Source: Deltaproteobacteria bacterium IMCC39524
GTDB taxonomy: Bacteria; Desulfobacterota; Desulfuromonadia; Desulfuromonadales; BM103
DNA: 64,000 nucleotides
Direction: 5' to 3'
Assembly: GCA_029667085.1 (NCBI GenBank)
Contig: JARUHJ010000009.1
Location: forward strand, 1 to 64,000
Under the pieces are notes generated by a model, which saw only the letters and a list, made by a program, of their open reading frames with translations, had not been told where the DNA came from and did not search any database. Position numbers and translations under genes: made by a program. Of this stretch, positions 28,998 to 57,692 are shown one piece after another. Each line of letters opens with the position of its first letter. Within the stretch, counting starts at the first letter, position 1.

Positions 28998-30194
28998 ATG
29001 CAATTATTGAGAGCTCTTCTACTCCTGATTGTCCCCGGGGCACTATTCTCTGCAGCAGTTTATCTGCAGATCAAGGCCTCGGTTCCCTCTACATGGCTCC
29101 CTCTGCTTGAGATGTTTCCTTATCTGGCAGTGGTTGCCGGGCTCTTCCTTGGTTGGCGTTTCAACCGCACCCGTGTGCTCTGGGCAATTGCACTCCTGAT
29201 TCTCGTTGAACGCGCTTTAGCTCTGACAGCGCCTTTTGCGCGCGAATACGTTCTGCTGGTTGCTCCGGTTCTGGTGCCGTTGAACCTGGCGCTCTTTAGC
29301 TGGTGGTCGGAGCGTGGCCTGTTTACAATACATGGTCTGTTGCGGTTGGTTGCCATTTTGCTGCAACTCGGTTGCGTTTTGTGGCTCTATTTCACTCGGG
29401 CCGGAGAGATAATGGCCTGGTTGGGCCTTCATCTCATTGAGAGTTCTTTTCTGAACCAGCTTCCTCTCTCTCAGATATCTCTGTTTATTGCCCTGTTGAG
29501 TCTCCTCGCGTTACTGGTTCGCTTCTGCAAGAAAATCGAGGCCCTCGAATCCAGTTTCTGCTGGGCTCTGGCTGCGACGATTGCCGGATTCTGTTGGCCG
29601 CAGGATTTTTCTTTCTGGGGTGGCGTTGCGATCTTCCTGCTGACGATTGCCTTGATCGAGAGCAGCTTCAAGATGGCCTTCAACGATGAATTGACCGGCC
29701 TCCCTGCACGTCGGGCGATGAAGGAGTTCCTGCTCAAGGTGGGGCGTCGTTATACCCTGGCCATGGTCGATGTGGACCACTTCAAGAAGGTGAATGATAA
29801 CCATGGTCATGACGTGGGTGATCAGGTCCTGCGGATGGTAGCAACTTGCCTGCGGCGGGTCTCTGGAGGTGGAAGGGCGTATCGTTATGGTGGCGAGGAG
29901 TTTGCTGTGATCTTCCCGAACAAGGATCTGGAGCGTGCCTTGCCGCACCTCGAAGAACTGCGTGAGACAATCTCCAGGGCTGGCTTTGTGTTGAGAGGTC
30001 GTAAAAGGCCAAAGAAAAGACCTGAAGGCCAAAAGACTAAAGATTCAGGAAAAGGCAAGTTGCAGGTGACCGTGAGTATTGGAGTGGCGACACGTGATGA
30101 TAAAAACACGACTCCCGAGCAGCTGATTAAGGCCGCTGACCAGGCTCTCTATAAAGCCAAAAAAGGCGGTCGTAACCAGGTCCGTAAGGCGTGA
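28998..30194 (+). CDS. Membrane-bound diguanylate cyclase
   Basis: A 398-residue protein with about seven membrane spans (residues 1-225) and a C-terminal GGDEF domain with active site GGEEF (298-302). It retains the guanine-recognising Asp (D275, in GHDVGDQVL), so it should make c-di-GMP and not cGAMP. The inhibitory RxxD site is absent: the expected positions read S and G. It therefore probably lacks product inhibition. A Lys/Arg-rich insertion (RKRPKKRPEGQKTK) interrupts the C-terminal part. It is followed 40 bases later by a GEMM-I riboswitch, which would sense its product. Confidence 0.9.
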   Translation: MQLLRALLLLIVPGALFSAAVYLQIKASVPSTWLPLLEMFPYLAVVAGLFLGWRFNRTRVLWAIALLILVERALALTAPFAREYVLLVAPVLVPLNLALFSWWSERGLFTIHGLLRLVAILLQLGCVLWLYFTRAGEIMAWLGLHLIESSFLNQLPLSQISLFIALLSLLALLVRFCKKIEALESSFCWALAATIAGFCWPQDFSFWGGVAIFLLTIALIESSFKMAFNDELTGLPARRAMKEFLLKVGRRYTLAMVDVDHFKKVNDNHGHDVGDQVLRMVATCLRRVSGGGRAYRYGGEEFAVIFPNKDLERALPHLEELRETISRAGFVLRGRKRPKKRPEGQKTKDSGKGKLQVTVSIGVATRDDKNTTPEQLIKAADQALYKAKKGGRNQVRKA

Positions 30195-30235: not shown

Positions 30236-30337
30236 GTTGTCCAAGTCATCGAGAAAGCCAAACCAGTCGTAAGACAGGGGCGGAAAGCCACGGGTCTTCT
30301 CTTCAATCACTTAATAAAGATAGCCGAGCTACCGAAA
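30236..30337 (+). promoter_or_regulatory. GEMM-I (c-di-GMP-I) riboswitch
   Basis: The conserved core is present in order: GAAAGCCAAACC (30252-30263), GTAA tetraloop hairpin (AGTC/GACA arms), GGGGCGGAAAGCCACGGGT (30277-30294), a variable arm, and TAGCCGAGCTACCG (30321-30334). The base equivalent to G20 of the Vibrio Vc2 riboswitch is G (30257), while cGAMP-selective GEMM-Ib members have A there, so c-di-GMP is the predicted ligand. CC at 30258-30259 can pair with GG at 30282-30283, a compensated change. It controls the DsrE-like gene. Confidence 0.85.
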
Positions 30338-52042: not shown

Positions 52043-53302
52043 TCAAGCGTCATGAATTTCATGGATCAGGCGACTCTCCAGCCCGTCCAGATCAACCTCT
52101 TCCTGGCTGCTCTCATCCATGTTGCGCAGTTGCGCAACCCCACGTTCGAGCTCGTCTTCTCCGAGGATGAGGACCCGGCGGGTTTTCATCTTGTCGGCGC
52201 GGCGTAGCTGGGCTTTCAGGCTCTTTCCGGTATATTCCATCTCAACCAGCACACCTTCGCGCTGCAGACGGGTCAGCATGGCAAAGCCGGCCCTGGTCGC
52301 CATCTCGCCGAGGGTCGCAATAAAGAGCTCAGGCCGGGGCGGTTCGATGCTTTGCTCACCAAGCATCAGGGCCAGCCGTTCCAGACCAATGGCGAAGCCG
52401 ATACCCGGTAACTCCGGGCCGCCAAGGTCTTTGATCAAGCCATCGTAGCGGCCGCCGGCGGCAACAGCATTCTGTGAACCGAGACTGCCGGTCACCATCT
52501 CAAAGGTGGTTTTGGTGTAGTAGTCAAGACCGCGTACCATGCGTGGGTTCACCGTGTAGTTGACTGACAGGGCATCGAGGTGCTCTTTAACCTGACCGAA
52601 GTGAGTCTCGCAACCGATGCAGAGGTTGTCAAGCATGGCCGGTGCGTCAACAGTTGCTTCCTTGCATCCGGGCACTTTGCAGTCAAGAACGCGCAGCGGG
52701 TTCGTGGTGTAGCGTCGCTGGCAGTCGGCGCAGAGTGATTCAATGTGCTGCTCCAGGAAGCTGATCAGAGCATCGCGGTAGCTTGGACGGCATTCCGGAC
52801 AGCCAAGGGAGTTGATCTGCAGGACCACATCGGGAATTTTCGTGGTCTGAAAGTAGTGGCTGAGCATGGCCAGGACCTGGGCGTCGATCTTGGGATCGTC
52901 GACACCGATGACTTCTGCCCCGATCTGATGAAATTGCCGGTAACGGCCTTTCTGAGGACGCTCGTGGCGGAACATAGGGCCTATATAGTAGAGTTTCGAG
53001 ACCGGATCCTGGGCATACATCTTGTGTTGAATGAAGGAGCGCATCACAGGAGCTGTTCCTTCCGGACGCAGGGTCATCGAGGTGCCGCCCTTGTCGCTGA
53101 AAGTGTACATCTCCTTTTCAACGATGTCGGTCGTCTCGCCGATAGAACGGCAGAAGAGCTCGGTTTTTTCGACGACCGGAACGCGGATTTCACGGTAACC
53201 GAAGGCTCCGAAAACCTTGCGGGCCTGCTCTTCGAGGTGCTGCCAGGTTTCAACGTCGCCGGGAAGAATGTCGTTCATACCTTTAATGCCTGTAATACTC
53301 AT
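52043..53302 (-). CDS. hisS: Histidyl-tRNA synthetase
   Basis: A 419-residue class II enzyme with MNDILPGD at the start, motif 2 region MFRHERPQKGRYRQFHQIG, the histidine loops (RGLDYYTKTTFE) and GFAIGLERLALML near the end. It lies next to the pseudogene and Hypr-type GGDEF gene, an order that I recall from Geobacter genomes. Confidence 0.95.
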   Translation of the reverse strand: MSITGIKGMNDILPGDVETWQHLEEQARKVFGAFGYREIRVPVVEKTELFCRSIGETTDIVEKEMYTFSDKGGTSMTLRPEGTAPVMRSFIQHKMYAQDPVSKLYYIGPMFRHERPQKGRYRQFHQIGAEVIGVDDPKIDAQVLAMLSHYFQTTKIPDVVLQINSLGCPECRPSYRDALISFLEQHIESLCADCQRRYTTNPLRVLDCKVPGCKEATVDAPAMLDNLCIGCETHFGQVKEHLDALSVNYTVNPRMVRGLDYYTKTTFEMVTGSLGSQNAVAAGGRYDGLIKDLGGPELPGIGFAIGLERLALMLGEQSIEPPRPELFIATLGEMATRAGFAMLTRLQREGVLVEMEYTGKSLKAQLRRADKMKTRRVLILGEDELERGVAQLRNMDESSQEEVDLDGLESRLIHEIHDA

Positions 53303-53337: not shown

Positions 53338-53452
53338 ATAGCGTAATGCAAAGGCGCAAAGAATACATAGAAAGCCGCAAGGTTGAATAACAAAGAAAAA
53401 GGTTTCCTTCGCGTCTTGTTTATTACTTTGCGTCTTTGCGTTAAATGCCATT
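53338..53452. repeat. Interspersed palindromic repeat of the GCGCAAAG type, copy 3
   Basis: AATGCAAAGGCGCAAAGAA (53344-53362) is mirrored near 53430 by ACTTTGCGTCTTTGCGTTAA, forming a long stem over about 100 bases. Similar in style to copies at 5,540, 18,235 and 58,990 though with different wording of the units. Confidence 0.7.
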
Positions 53453-53541: not shown

Positions 53542-53893
53542 CTATTGATCTGTGAACGGTTCGAGTTGTGTCACATGGACCGCACTGGCAACGATCCGGT
53601 CGCTGTTCTCAGAAAGCAGGACCTCGCCCGGTTGGGTAATGTCCTGCATGCGGCGGCAATATTGACCTCGTCAGCAAACACCGTATTGTCTATTTTGGTT
53701 GACGAACCGATGTTGTCGGCGATGACGGGACCTGCATTAATCCCTAGGCCCATCGGCAGGGTCTTTTGGTGCGTTCGATGATCTCTAGGGAAACAGTTTA
53801 GGATTGACTGGCTTCGTTGGTCTGGAAGCAGTCCGGCAGGATGATGAAGAGTAAGCCGCCCAGGGCCAAGGCAACCAGGGTGCAAGAGATCAT
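53542..53893 (-). pseudogene. Decayed membrane-type class III nucleotide cyclase
   Basis: In three frames on the minus strand the remains of one gene are readable. It begins with ATG overlapping the stop of the upstream GGDEF gene (ATGA) and a membrane span (LVALALGGLLFIILPD), then a stop. Next come LEIIERTKR, then the cyclase segment MGLGINAGPVIADNIGSSTK with TVFADEVNIAA, and after another frameshift MQDITQPGEVLLSENSDR to a TAG. The segments match the C-terminal half of adenylate/guanylate cyclases (GIGINTGPVxxGNIGS, GDxVNxAARLQ). The N-terminal half of the cyclase domain is missing. Confidence 0.75.
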
Positions 53894-55263
53894 GTCTTGC
53901 CAAGCTCCGAAGCGTTCCGGACTATGTTACGGTCGTTTTTGCCGAGATACATCGCTTTGTCGGCCAGATCGATCATCTCTTCCAAAACCGTTGCGTGAAT
54001 TGGGTAAGTTGCATGACCTACGGTTGCCGTCAGGCGACCGGTATTGTCATGGCCGGTTGAAAAATTGAACTCGGCAATGGTGGACCGGATTCGTTCTGCA
54101 ACGATTTTGGCGCCACGTGTGTCAGTCTCTACAAGGAGTGCGGTGAATTCATCACCACCGTATCGAAAGAGCATGTCGGCATCACGGACACATTCACGTA
54201 ACAATTCACCGACCTGGCGCAACACGCCGCTGCCGACCATGTGGCCATGTTCGTCGTTGATACTCTTGAACAGGTCAAGATCGATAAAAGCCAGTGAAAA
54301 TTCCAGGCCGTAACGTTCTGAACGGCGGATTTCCTGTTCGAGAGCTATATGCAGGTAGCGGTGGTTGTATAGTCCGGTCAGATCGTCGGTGTAAATCAGC
54401 TCCCGGGCGCCTTGATATTGGCAGGCGTTGCTAAAGCCAAGGGAGACCTGTTCGGCGAGAAAGTTCAGATTCTGCTGCGAGTCTGATTTCGGAAGGTCGG
54501 AGTCGTTCGGGTTGCAAAGGACCACAGCGCCATGTTCCTGGTTCTCTGCCGTCATGGGGAAGATCCAGAAAGACTTCAAGGCCTCGTCGCTCCCGGCGAC
54601 CTCGGGGATGTCTTCTCTCTGCAGGAGGGTGGGTGCTTCCATCGCCCTGGTTTTCTCGAGCAGTTGTTCCGCCAGCTTCTTTGCTTCGTCCTCGTCGAAC
54701 CCTTTCGCTTTAAGATGGCTGATGCCGCTCTGGGTGGCAAGGTAGGCCAGGCCCAGGCCCTGTCCTGTTTCATTCAGCAGGGTGCTCAGCGATTCTTGAA
54801 AGAGATTGTCGATATTCAGGAGGCCGGAGAGATGTTGGCCTTTTTGGTAGAGACGGATCTGGCTATGCAGCAGGCTGTTCTCTGCAATCAGACGACGCTG
54901 CTCAAAGCAGATTTTGACGGTGTGACGCAGTTGTTCAGGATTGCATGGCTTGATGAGATAATCTCGAGCCCCGCCTTTCAACGCCTGAATCGCGGTTTCT
55001 ACTGTGGCATTTCCAGTGGCTAGGATGATATCCGGGGCTGGATCGAAAGAGCGTGTGCGGCGGATCAATTCCAGACCGCAAATTTCGGGCATGACCATGT
55101 CGGTCAGGATGATATCGACTTTTGTCCGTGACAGATAGTCGAGAGCTTCTTTGCCGGAGCCAACAGACTCGATACTGTAAAGGTCGCCCTCCGAGAGGAT
55201 CTCGGTGAAGAGGCGACGGAAAAAAACTTCATCATCTACAATCAGAATCTTTGGCTTTGGCAT
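53890..55263 (-). CDS. gacA: REC-GAF-GGDEF protein, Hypr-type (predicted cGAMP synthase)
   Basis: A 457-residue response regulator: REC domain (1-120, phospho-acceptor D55 in LTDMVMPE), GAF-like middle (140-285) and GGDEF (290-450) with GGDEF at 369-373 and an intact inhibitory RxxD (R360-D363). In the guanine-recognition loop GHMVGSGVL it has S345 where canonical enzymes have Asp (PleD D344); this Asp-to-Ser change is the known mark of Hypr cyclases that make 3',3'-cGAMP, such as Geobacter GacA. Neighbouring hisS fits that family. The symbol rests on motif and context, not on a database match. Confidence 0.82.
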   Translation of the reverse strand: MPKPKILIVDDEVFFRRLFTEILSEGDLYSIESVGSGKEALDYLSRTKVDIILTDMVMPEICGLELIRRTRSFDPAPDIILATGNATVETAIQALKGGARDYLIKPCNPEQLRHTVKICFEQRRLIAENSLLHSQIRLYQKGQHLSGLLNIDNLFQESLSTLLNETGQGLGLAYLATQSGISHLKAKGFDEDEAKKLAEQLLEKTRAMEAPTLLQREDIPEVAGSDEALKSFWIFPMTAENQEHGAVVLCNPNDSDLPKSDSQQNLNFLAEQVSLGFSNACQYQGARELIYTDDLTGLYNHRYLHIALEQEIRRSERYGLEFSLAFIDLDLFKSINDEHGHMVGSGVLRQVGELLRECVRDADMLFRYGGDEFTALLVETDTRGAKIVAERIRSTIAEFNFSTGHDNTGRLTATVGHATYPIHATVLEEMIDLADKAMYLGKNDRNIVRNASELGKT

Positions 55264-55316: not shown

Positions 55317-57692
55317 TCAATTATTATCCCTGCCCCGATCATCCTCTTTTACAGTTGTGCCGTGCCAGCGATCATTGACAACCCTGAATTGCAGCATCCC
55401 CTGTGTGTCAGTTCTGAAGACATCAACCTGCTGGCTGTCGCAGGCCTCCAGTGTCTGTTGATGCGGGAAACCATAAGGGTTGCCGCGTCCGGCCGAGACA
55501 AAAACCGCTGTAGGCTTTAACCACTCCAGGTAGCGTAATGGTTCTGCGTGACGGCTGCCGTGGTGCGACATTTTCAAAAGAGTGACTTGGCCAGGCAGTC
55601 CAGCTTCAACAAGTTGTGAAAGGCCTGCGCCGAAGAGGTCTGCAGTCAGTAAGGCTCCTAGACCATGGCTGCCTGCGAAAACGGCAATAGAGCGTTCGTT
55701 TTTGTCACGTGACCTCTGTGCCGGGGCAAAGAGGCTGAACCCCCTATGCCCGTCATTAATCAGGTGAGTCCATCCTTTGTGGATACGTTCTATCGGCACC
55801 TCTTTTTCGTGAAGCGCCTGTTGCAATTCCGGCTCAAGGTCTTCGACCTTTGCGGCCAGATAAAATTTTGCGACCGGGAAACGTCGGATGATGTAGATCA
55901 GCCCCGAGGTGTGGTCTGGATGATTATGCGTAAGAATGACCCCAGCCAATTGCCTGACGCCCATTCGGCCAAGGGCAGGGCCGACCAGCTGCTCTCCGGG
56001 GTCGATTGACGACCCAGGCAGACCGCCACCGTCCACCAGGTAGTGAGAACCTGCGAGCGAGACAAGGGTCGCGTCACCCTGGCCGACACTGATCGCAGTG
56101 ACCTGCAACCCGGCAATCTGTGGTTGTGTTATCCAGGCTGTTGACACGGTTGCCAGGAGAAGAGTGCTGCGGGCCAGCCAGTGTCCTCTTTGTCTTCCGA
56201 AGGGCAGGCAGATCATCAATAGGCCGACCAGCATAATCAGGCTGGAGAAGGTTAGGTAGCAGGGCTTTGCCGATAACCCGGGCCATTGGCTGATGGTGGT
56301 GACGATCTTTATCGCCAACGTTACCAGCTTGGATGCTACCAACAGGCCGGCGTCAGCGAGAAAGTTTGAGAAGGGCAAAGTCGCCAGACTGAGCAAGCCC
56401 AGTGGTACGGCTCCCCAGGCAATTAACGGAATGGCGAAGAGGTTGGTCAATAACCCGGCAGGGCTGAACTGATGGAAATGCCACAAGCTTGCGGGGGCGG
56501 TCGCAAGGGTCGCAGCGATCGTTGTCATGACCAGCGTTAATGGCCAGCGCAGCCGCTTGGCATAATCTTCTGTTTTTCTCTGCCAGTGGGGCAGCCAGAT
56601 GAGGATTCCCGCGACCCCTGAAAATGAGAGTTGAAAGCCTGGTTGAAAGAGCGCCAGGGGGTTGCATAGCAGCAAGCAGAAGGCCACTGTTGCCAGAAGG
56701 ATACAGGGACTTGTGCGCCGACCCCTGGCAAAGAGCAAGGCGACTATGGTTGCCATCAGAAAAGCGCGTTGAGTCGCCCAGGCGTTGCCTGTCAGAAGCA
56801 GGTAGACGGCAAGAGGAACGATCAGCAAAACCGGAACAATTTTCTGGGGTGGGCACCAGAGCACCAGACGTTGACTGCGTGTGTAAAGCCATTTGCCAAG
56901 TTGGTATAAGAGCAGGGCCAGAAGACCGAAGTGGAGTCCGGAAATTGCGAACAGATGCGCGACACCGCTACTGGAGAGGAGTTGGCGCTGTTCGACGCTG
57001 ATTCCTCCCCGCCAGCCAAGCAGGAGCGACTGCAGCAACCCTGCAGCGTCGTTCGGCACGACCTCTTCGATATGCATTGCAAGGCTATGGCGCCAGTTCT
57101 CCAGAAAAGAGTCCTCTGCTGCGGGATGATTGACCAGAACCGTCAGATCCTCAGCACGATTAAGAAAGGAGGTGACGTAGATACCGCGCGCTGCAAGATA
57201 GAGAGGATAGTTGAACTCTCCCGGGTTGCCGAAACGCGATGGTTGCCGCAATGTCGATCGCCATCGAATAATCTGTCCGGGGCGGGCCTGCAATTCGCCG
57301 CCTTTAATGTAGAGAAGGAGCTTGCCGGTCACCCTGGCTGCCGTTCTGCCCTTCATAACCTGCTGGACGTCTGTCAACAGGCGATATCCTCCGTTAGCCC
57401 TTTTCTCAGAAGTGAGAACCTTGCCTTCTATGATTGCCGCAGGTTTTTCGGCAAATTGGCTGATATGGTTGTGGACGACAGGAGCTTTAAGGGCCAGAGA
57501 GGCCTGTATGAATCCGCCAAGGCAGAGCAGGATCGTAACGGGGAGCCAACCCCATCTTGAACGACGGAGAGGCGCCCATGCCAGGAACAAGAGTCCTGAA
57601 GCAAAGGCGCAACCGGTTGAGTCCCAAGGTGCAATGATGCACGTCAAGGCGATGCCGGTCGCATATGCGGCCAGCAACACTACGACAGTCAA
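55317..57692 (-). CDS. comEC: DNA uptake channel ComEC/Rec2
   Basis: A 791-residue protein with an N-terminal OB-like DUF4131 region, the central multi-span Competence domain (QRQLLSSSGVAHLFAISGLHFGLLAL) and a C-terminal metallo-beta-lactamase-like domain with VDGGGLPGS and LTHNHPDHTSGL, carrying the metal-site histidines. ComEC brings single-stranded DNA through the inner membrane in natural transformation. Full length, so potentially functional. Other competence genes are not in the window. Confidence 0.92.
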   Translation of the reverse strand: MTVVVLLAAYATGIALTCIIAPWDSTGCAFASGLLFLAWAPLRRSRWGWLPVTILLCLGGFIQASLALKAPVVHNHISQFAEKPAAIIEGKVLTSEKRANGGYRLLTDVQQVMKGRTAARVTGKLLLYIKGGELQARPGQIIRWRSTLRQPSRFGNPGEFNYPLYLAARGIYVTSFLNRAEDLTVLVNHPAAEDSFLENWRHSLAMHIEEVVPNDAAGLLQSLLLGWRGGISVEQRQLLSSSGVAHLFAISGLHFGLLALLLYQLGKWLYTRSQRLVLWCPPQKIVPVLLIVPLAVYLLLTGNAWATQRAFLMATIVALLFARGRRTSPCILLATVAFCLLLCNPLALFQPGFQLSFSGVAGILIWLPHWQRKTEDYAKRLRWPLTLVMTTIAATLATAPASLWHFHQFSPAGLLTNLFAIPLIAWGAVPLGLLSLATLPFSNFLADAGLLVASKLVTLAIKIVTTISQWPGLSAKPCYLTFSSLIMLVGLLMICLPFGRQRGHWLARSTLLLATVSTAWITQPQIAGLQVTAISVGQGDATLVSLAGSHYLVDGGGLPGSSIDPGEQLVGPALGRMGVRQLAGVILTHNHPDHTSGLIYIIRRFPVAKFYLAAKVEDLEPELQQALHEKEVPIERIHKGWTHLINDGHRGFSLFAPAQRSRDKNERSIAVFAGSHGLGALLTADLFGAGLSQLVEAGLPGQVTLLKMSHHGSRHAEPLRYLEWLKPTAVFVSAGRGNPYGFPHQQTLEACDSQQVDVFRTDTQGMLQFRVVNDRWHGTTVKEDDRGRDNN

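Follow-up and report, generated by a model that had tools for sequence, protein, structure and literature searches.

A predicted 3',3'-cGAMP synthase of the GacA type in Deltaproteobacteria bacterium IMCC39524, a genome with A20-type GEMM-I riboswitches

The stretch of DNA analysed here, referred to as the window, comprises 64,000 nucleotides of Deltaproteobacteria bacterium IMCC39524, and one of its genes (53890-55263, minus strand) is, by sequence, an orthologue of GacA, an enzyme type that has already been described. The encoded protein is most probably (with a probability of roughly 0.83) a response-regulator-gated Hypr GGDEF enzyme, predicted to join GTP and ATP into 3',3'-cGAMP together with some c-di-GMP. 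Synthesis of cGAMP by this enzyme is a strong prediction and is considered likely, in agreement with the A20-type GEMM-I riboswitches of the genome, and we infer its product, activation and regulon from those of GacA. GacA-type enzymes have previously been reported as conserved across Geobacter, myxobacteria and others (PMC6456294; articles designated by PMC number are cited here and below from excerpts), so the window gene adds a member to a known kind of enzyme, in this case in an uncultured relative of Geobacter. Far beyond Geobacter, almost the entire class shares the full Hypr signature without variation, i.e., the Ser, the GGDE and a partner residue other than Arg, and genomes with this fixed signature also carry cGAMP-type riboswitches.

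According to the mechanism proposed for the window protein, presumed phosphorylation of the REC domain would bring two GGDEF domains together, whereupon Ser345 and Asn336 would hydrogen-bond either guanine or adenine, and His301, in place of the canonical Arg, would reach over the base held by the partner without favouring guanine. The Asp of GGDE would hold Mg at the distance required by the Ser, the Glu of GGDE would act as general base, and the resulting cGAMP would turn the A20-type GEMM-I riboswitches located around the genome.

Domain build and active site of the window protein

The features of the gene are as follows.

53890-55263, minus strand: gacA orthologue of 457 residues (REC, GAF-like linker, Hypr GGDEF), a real open reading frame with an ATG start
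54916-55248, minus strand: REC domain, residues 6-116 (Pfam PF00072, Response_reg, 96.7 bits)
55099-55101, minus strand: Asp55, candidate phosphorylation site (84 of the 89 distinct orthologues also have Asp, and 2 have a gap)
54439-54813, minus strand: GAF-like linker, residues 151-275 (PF13185, GAF_2, 21.0 bits with a cut-off of 28.6)
53932-54393, minus strand: GGDEF domain, residues 291-444 (PF00990, 140.8 bits)
54361-54363, minus strand: His301 (CAC), cross-dimer column, which holds Tyr304 in the GacA of G. metallireducens and an Arg in canonical enzymes
54256-54258, minus strand: Asn336, base-binding (aligned with 6d9m; kept in 89 of 89 orthologues)
54229-54231, minus strand: Ser345 (AGC), Hypr signature residue (from aligned columns; kept in 89 of 89 orthologues)
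54175-54186, minus strand: RxxD inhibitory site, R360 to D363 (both ends kept in 89 of 89 orthologues)
54145-54159, minus strand: GGDEF motif, residues 369-373 (GGDE in 89 of 89 orthologues; last residue Phe in 61, Tyr in 28)

Asp55 is taken by us as the likely phosphorylation site on account of its position in the REC domain. An AlphaFold2 model of the protein, for which the input alignment consisted of 35 orthologues, has a mean pLDDT of 88 and a pTM of 0.48, leaves the relative arrangement of the domains uncertain and exhibits alpha/beta elements in the linker. Foldseek searches with this model returned PleD structures as the top PDB matches, with 6d9m at rank 20.

At the level of sequence, the best solved match is 6d9m, i.e., the GGDEF domain of G. 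metallireducens GacA, with 167.6 bits as compared to 125.7 for the next (phmmer; 106 distinct PDB sequences at E <= 1e-10). In this alignment S345 lies opposite the Hypr Ser and N336 opposite the base-binding Asn of 6d9m, while in the phmmer alignments with two canonical enzymes, 3bre, a P. aeruginosa response regulator which we take to be WspR, and 6zxm (DgcR), S345 lies opposite an Asp. A sequence-only reading of this DNA had placed the Ser of the loop GHMVGSGVL on the column of PleD D344. The loop and its AGC codon were read correctly, and the placement agrees with the Ser of 6d9m and the Asp of 3bre and 6zxm; correspondence to the PleD column itself would follow by way of these three alignments, PleD having been matched over the same stretch.

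Conservation was assessed among 89 distinct orthologues (those left of 100 loci once the window gene itself and ten exact duplicates had been set aside), two of which are partial, i.e., L051, located at a contig edge, and L053, which is interrupted. All 89 retain S345, N336, R360, D363 and the four residues of GGDE, which rules out chance or decay as the origin of Ser345 and bears out the earlier view that the intact Asn336, GGDEF and RxxD sites argue against decay. Position 301 is occupied by Tyr in 46 orthologues, His in 36, Gln in 4, and Val, Leu and Phe in one each, with Arg in none of the 89, and His is present in 17 of the 18 nearest orthologues listed. The window protein accordingly carries all three Hypr determinants, namely Ser345, a GGDE[F/Y] rather than a GGEE motif and a non-Arg residue at the column of GacA residue 304; the third of these, His301, was absent from the earlier reading and is consistent with the Hypr type.

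Comparison with known systems places the protein closest to GacA (GSU1658 of G. sulfurreducens; Gmet_1914 of G. metallireducens, 6d9m), with which it has in common the Hypr Ser, the base-binding Asn, GGDE and RxxD as well as a REC domain N-terminal to the GGDEF domain, 6d9m being named 'response receiver ... GAF domain-containing'. It differs from GacA, of which the GGDEF domain only was aligned, in having His where GacA has Tyr in the cross-dimer position and in belonging to another lineage. PleD and WspR also exhibit a REC and GGDEF architecture, yet they possess an Asp at the signature column and make c-di-GMP only, as is established for PleD (see also PMC9140294). Bd0367 of Bdellovibrio bacteriovorus, compared by its description in PMC9140294, is likewise a Hypr GGDEF protein with Ser, although with Met rather than His at the cross-dimer column; it makes mainly cGAMP and controls gliding and prey exit, riboswitches not being mentioned in the excerpts of that article.

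Orthology and gene order

A GacA orthologue was identified in 174 of the 194 genomes of the class, its own included (E <= 1e-50, the best eight candidates per genome being scored), and relatives of the window gene were found in 54 of 58 near genomes, again including its own (E <= 1e-60). Ten further genomes lacking a match at 1e-50 among the eight best candidates scored were not used as losses. The gene is flanked by two conserved neighbours.

52043-53302, minus strand: hisS, downstream neighbour (within 1 kb and on the same strand at 73 of 85 loci)
55317-57692, minus strand: comEC-like gene, upstream neighbour (on the same strand at 82 of 86 loci; named from a reading of its sequence)

The order comEC-gacA-hisS is thus conserved among loci with enough flanking sequence; these loci derive from MAGs and other assemblies, the Geobacter type strains not being singled out by name. 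The ten nearest named contigs are labelled Desulfuromonadales, Geobacteraceae or Deltaproteobacteria, and the copy of IMCC39146 is 93% identical. Orthology to Geobacter GacA, for which the sequence-only reading had invoked the adjacent hisS, is supported by the best match to 6d9m, the REC-GGDEF build, the invariant Ser and GGDE, the lack of Arg at the 304 column and this conserved gene order.

In two relatives the reading frame of gacA is disturbed, with error and decay both possible: that of G007 (probably the same as the interrupted L053) is split in two with an in-frame TAG, and that of G047 carries one TGA. Between gacA and hisS, at 53545-53759 (minus strand), the window contains two out-of-frame peptide pieces that resemble a decayed class III nucleotidyl cyclase, and similar short pieces occur at the same place only in the nearest relatives (L044, L045, L051 and L053). 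A dispersed intergenic repeat resembling AACGCAAAGACGCAAAG, which is also present in other genomes of the class, is located at 53426-53442 (minus strand).

GEMM-I riboswitches and the product of the enzyme

The genome contains 38 matches to the GEMM-I family (RF01051), of which 36 are above and two below the Rfam cut-off, and position 20 is A in 16, G in 21 and unreadable in one; 17 GEMM-I riboswitches have been reported for G. sulfurreducens (PMC6456294). Position 20 is equivalent to A14 in the Geobacter cGAMP aptamer of known structure, where the listed contacts include A11, A12, U13, A14 and C15, and the substitution G20A allows a c-di-GMP riboswitch to bind cGAMP (PMC6274999, PMC7288161). 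One article (PMC9262584) regards this position as contributing to selectivity and not as an absolute filter. A20 is used here as a proxy mark of putative cGAMP aptamers of the GEMM-Ib-like kind. One switch of the genome (L035) reads GACAATACC over the aptamer contact stretch, and another (L019) also has AATACC. At the base of P2 the switches exhibit two builds, G21-C46 and C21-G46, with the partners swapped (e.g., L020, L022, L032 and L035), and each build occurs in A20 and G20 versions in this genome.

To place these counts in a wider setting, ten GacA-bearing genomes, hand-chosen to represent ten genera of the order, were compared with the GacA-less family f18 of that order, in whose ten genomes no GacA match was obtained at E <= 1e-50 (best eight candidates per genome scored). 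The GacA-bearing genomes yielded 97 Rfam matches, two of them under the cut-off; 89 were called by machine as 39 A20, 46 G20 and 4 C20, and the remaining eight consist of one masked match and, as read by eye, two A20 and five G20. The f18 genomes, five of which have none, yielded nine matches, all of them G20. Fisher's test on A20 in the two sets gives a p of about 0.01, on which we do not lean because f18 is a single clade and the GacA-bearing genomes were hand-picked. The f18 pattern, resting as it does on one clade, fits a role for GacA in feeding A20 switches. A search of the 194 genomes with A20/G20 DNA patterns was dropped in favour of Rfam matches, since the wide-gap pair of patterns caught many AACGCAAAGACGCAAAG-like repeats.

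One GEMM-I riboswitch (RF01051, 64 bits; G20, C21) lies in the window itself, at 30247-30336 (plus strand) behind a GGDEF gene at 29679-30179 (plus strand), and is followed by a short secreted-looking open reading frame.

The published determinants of Hypr activity (PMC6456294) bear on the product of the window enzyme in both directions. Ser348 of GacA touches the base; at the signature column, Ser or Thr is found only alongside GGDE[F/Y], the combination of Ser with GGEEF being inactive. Tyr304 of GacA faces the base of the other monomer and replaces the Arg of 94% of predicted diguanylate cyclases, while two Hypr enzymes with Arg at this column yield more c-di-GMP. The Ser is insufficient by itself, because, of five canonical enzymes given it in place of Asp, four became inactive and the fifth, with a GGDEF motif, remained a c-di-GMP maker. 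That the window protein, in spite of its Ser signature, is in practice a diguanylate cyclase that makes mostly c-di-GMP in the cell could be argued from these last two observations, from the promiscuity of Hypr enzymes, including that of GacA itself in vitro, and from the G20 identity of 21 of 37 readable GEMM-I switches, which indicates that c-di-GMP is sensed as well; it is nevertheless quite improbable in view of the His at position 301, a column from which Arg is absent in the orthologues, the invariance of the rest of the Hypr site and the existence of A20 switches in the genome. Residues reported as tested at the 304 column are Tyr, Ser, Ala, Gln and Arg (PMC6456294), and His is absent among the tested residues given in the excerpts of PMC6456294 and PMC9140294. 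A degenerate GGDEF domain that binds nucleotide without catalysis is an extremely improbable reading: GGDE, Asn336 and RxxD are kept throughout the orthologues, and the GacA domain of G. metallireducens binds guanosine in the crystal while GacA of G. sulfurreducens is active (PMC6456294). A REC-gated Hypr enzyme making cGAMP with some c-di-GMP is consequently the reading that we prefer.

Genes behind the A20 switches and other Ser-type GGDEF proteins

The first genes behind the A20 switches, chosen by a length-and-distance rule that may err in places, include those for a dCache histidine kinase, a sugar transferase, an NHL-repeat protein, a methyltransferase, a MopE-type metal-binding protein, a lectin/Ig-like surface protein, a DUF11 protein and a beta-helix protein, and eight of the 16 lack a Pfam match at 0.001. 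The sequence-only reading had pointed to the control of metal respiration by GacA in Geobacter. This role was not carried over to the window enzyme, because none of the 16 A20 switches of its genome precedes an open reading frame with at least two CxxCH motifs within the short reach of about 1.4 kb. That cGAMP made by the enzyme controls metal respiration, in the manner of GacA in G. sulfurreducens, would be in keeping with the orthology to GacA and with the MopE-type and NHL-repeat proteins behind two A20/C21 switches; it is rather unlikely given that, over the same distance, three of the 20 G20 switches scanned (the tandem partner L018 being left out) do precede small open reading frames with three CxxCH motifs, a contrast to be read with the reach of about 1.4 kb in mind and with the possibility that some G20 switches also sense cGAMP.

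Ser is present at the signature column in three of the 13 GGDEF domains of the genome, i.e., those of the window gene and of two proteins encoded outside the window, L008 and L013. L008 (G000:C4:481370-482422) is a GAF-GGDEF protein of 351 residues, in the near relatives of which RxxC replaces the RxxD site. Relatives of L008 (E <= 1e-60) are present in 70 of the 194 genomes of the class, counting its own; every one of the ten f18 genomes has such a relative, two of them as a partial match. Among 30 aligned members of the family, L008 included, the Ser is kept in all, and the 304 column is occupied by Gly in 12, Ala in 14 and Ser in 4; of 20 further stretches, 17 matched the motif and all 17 have the Ser. 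Hypr enzymes with Ala or Ser at 304 are among those tested by Hallberg 2016 (cited via PMC6456294). In the f18 genomes the Ser was read in nine of ten, the relative in the tenth (G197) ending before this column. Since f18 keeps these Ser-type proteins, the link 'no GacA, no cGAMP' is weakened, and on the basis of this residue f18 may still make cGAMP. No description of an L008-type GAF-GGDEF family was found in the literature searched, although Hallberg 2016 may cover such enzymes.

A tentative possibility is that two conserved cGAMP synthases of different build exist across the class: the REC-gated GacA, which would feed the A20 switches, and the Ser-type GAF-GGDEF protein, whose residue at 304 is Gly, Ala or Ser and which would persist without GacA and A20 and signal via another receptor, while the GacA/A20 regulon of the present genome would control surface and secreted proteins as well as polysaccharide, and not metal respiration. 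Family f18, which is devoid of GacA and has no A20 among its nine switches yet keeps the Ser-type GGDEF protein, offers a direct test of riboswitch-independent cGAMP action.

The third Ser-type protein, L013 (G000:C1:1058804-1059097, minus strand), is a membrane protein with a GGDDF motif. It resembles, as far as the description in excerpts of PMC8835794 permits comparison, GSU1937, the second Hypr protein of G. sulfurreducens, in its membrane segments, GGDDF and Ser. GSU1937 has Ser at the signature column, as does the window protein, from which it differs in being a membrane/HAMP protein with GGDDF.
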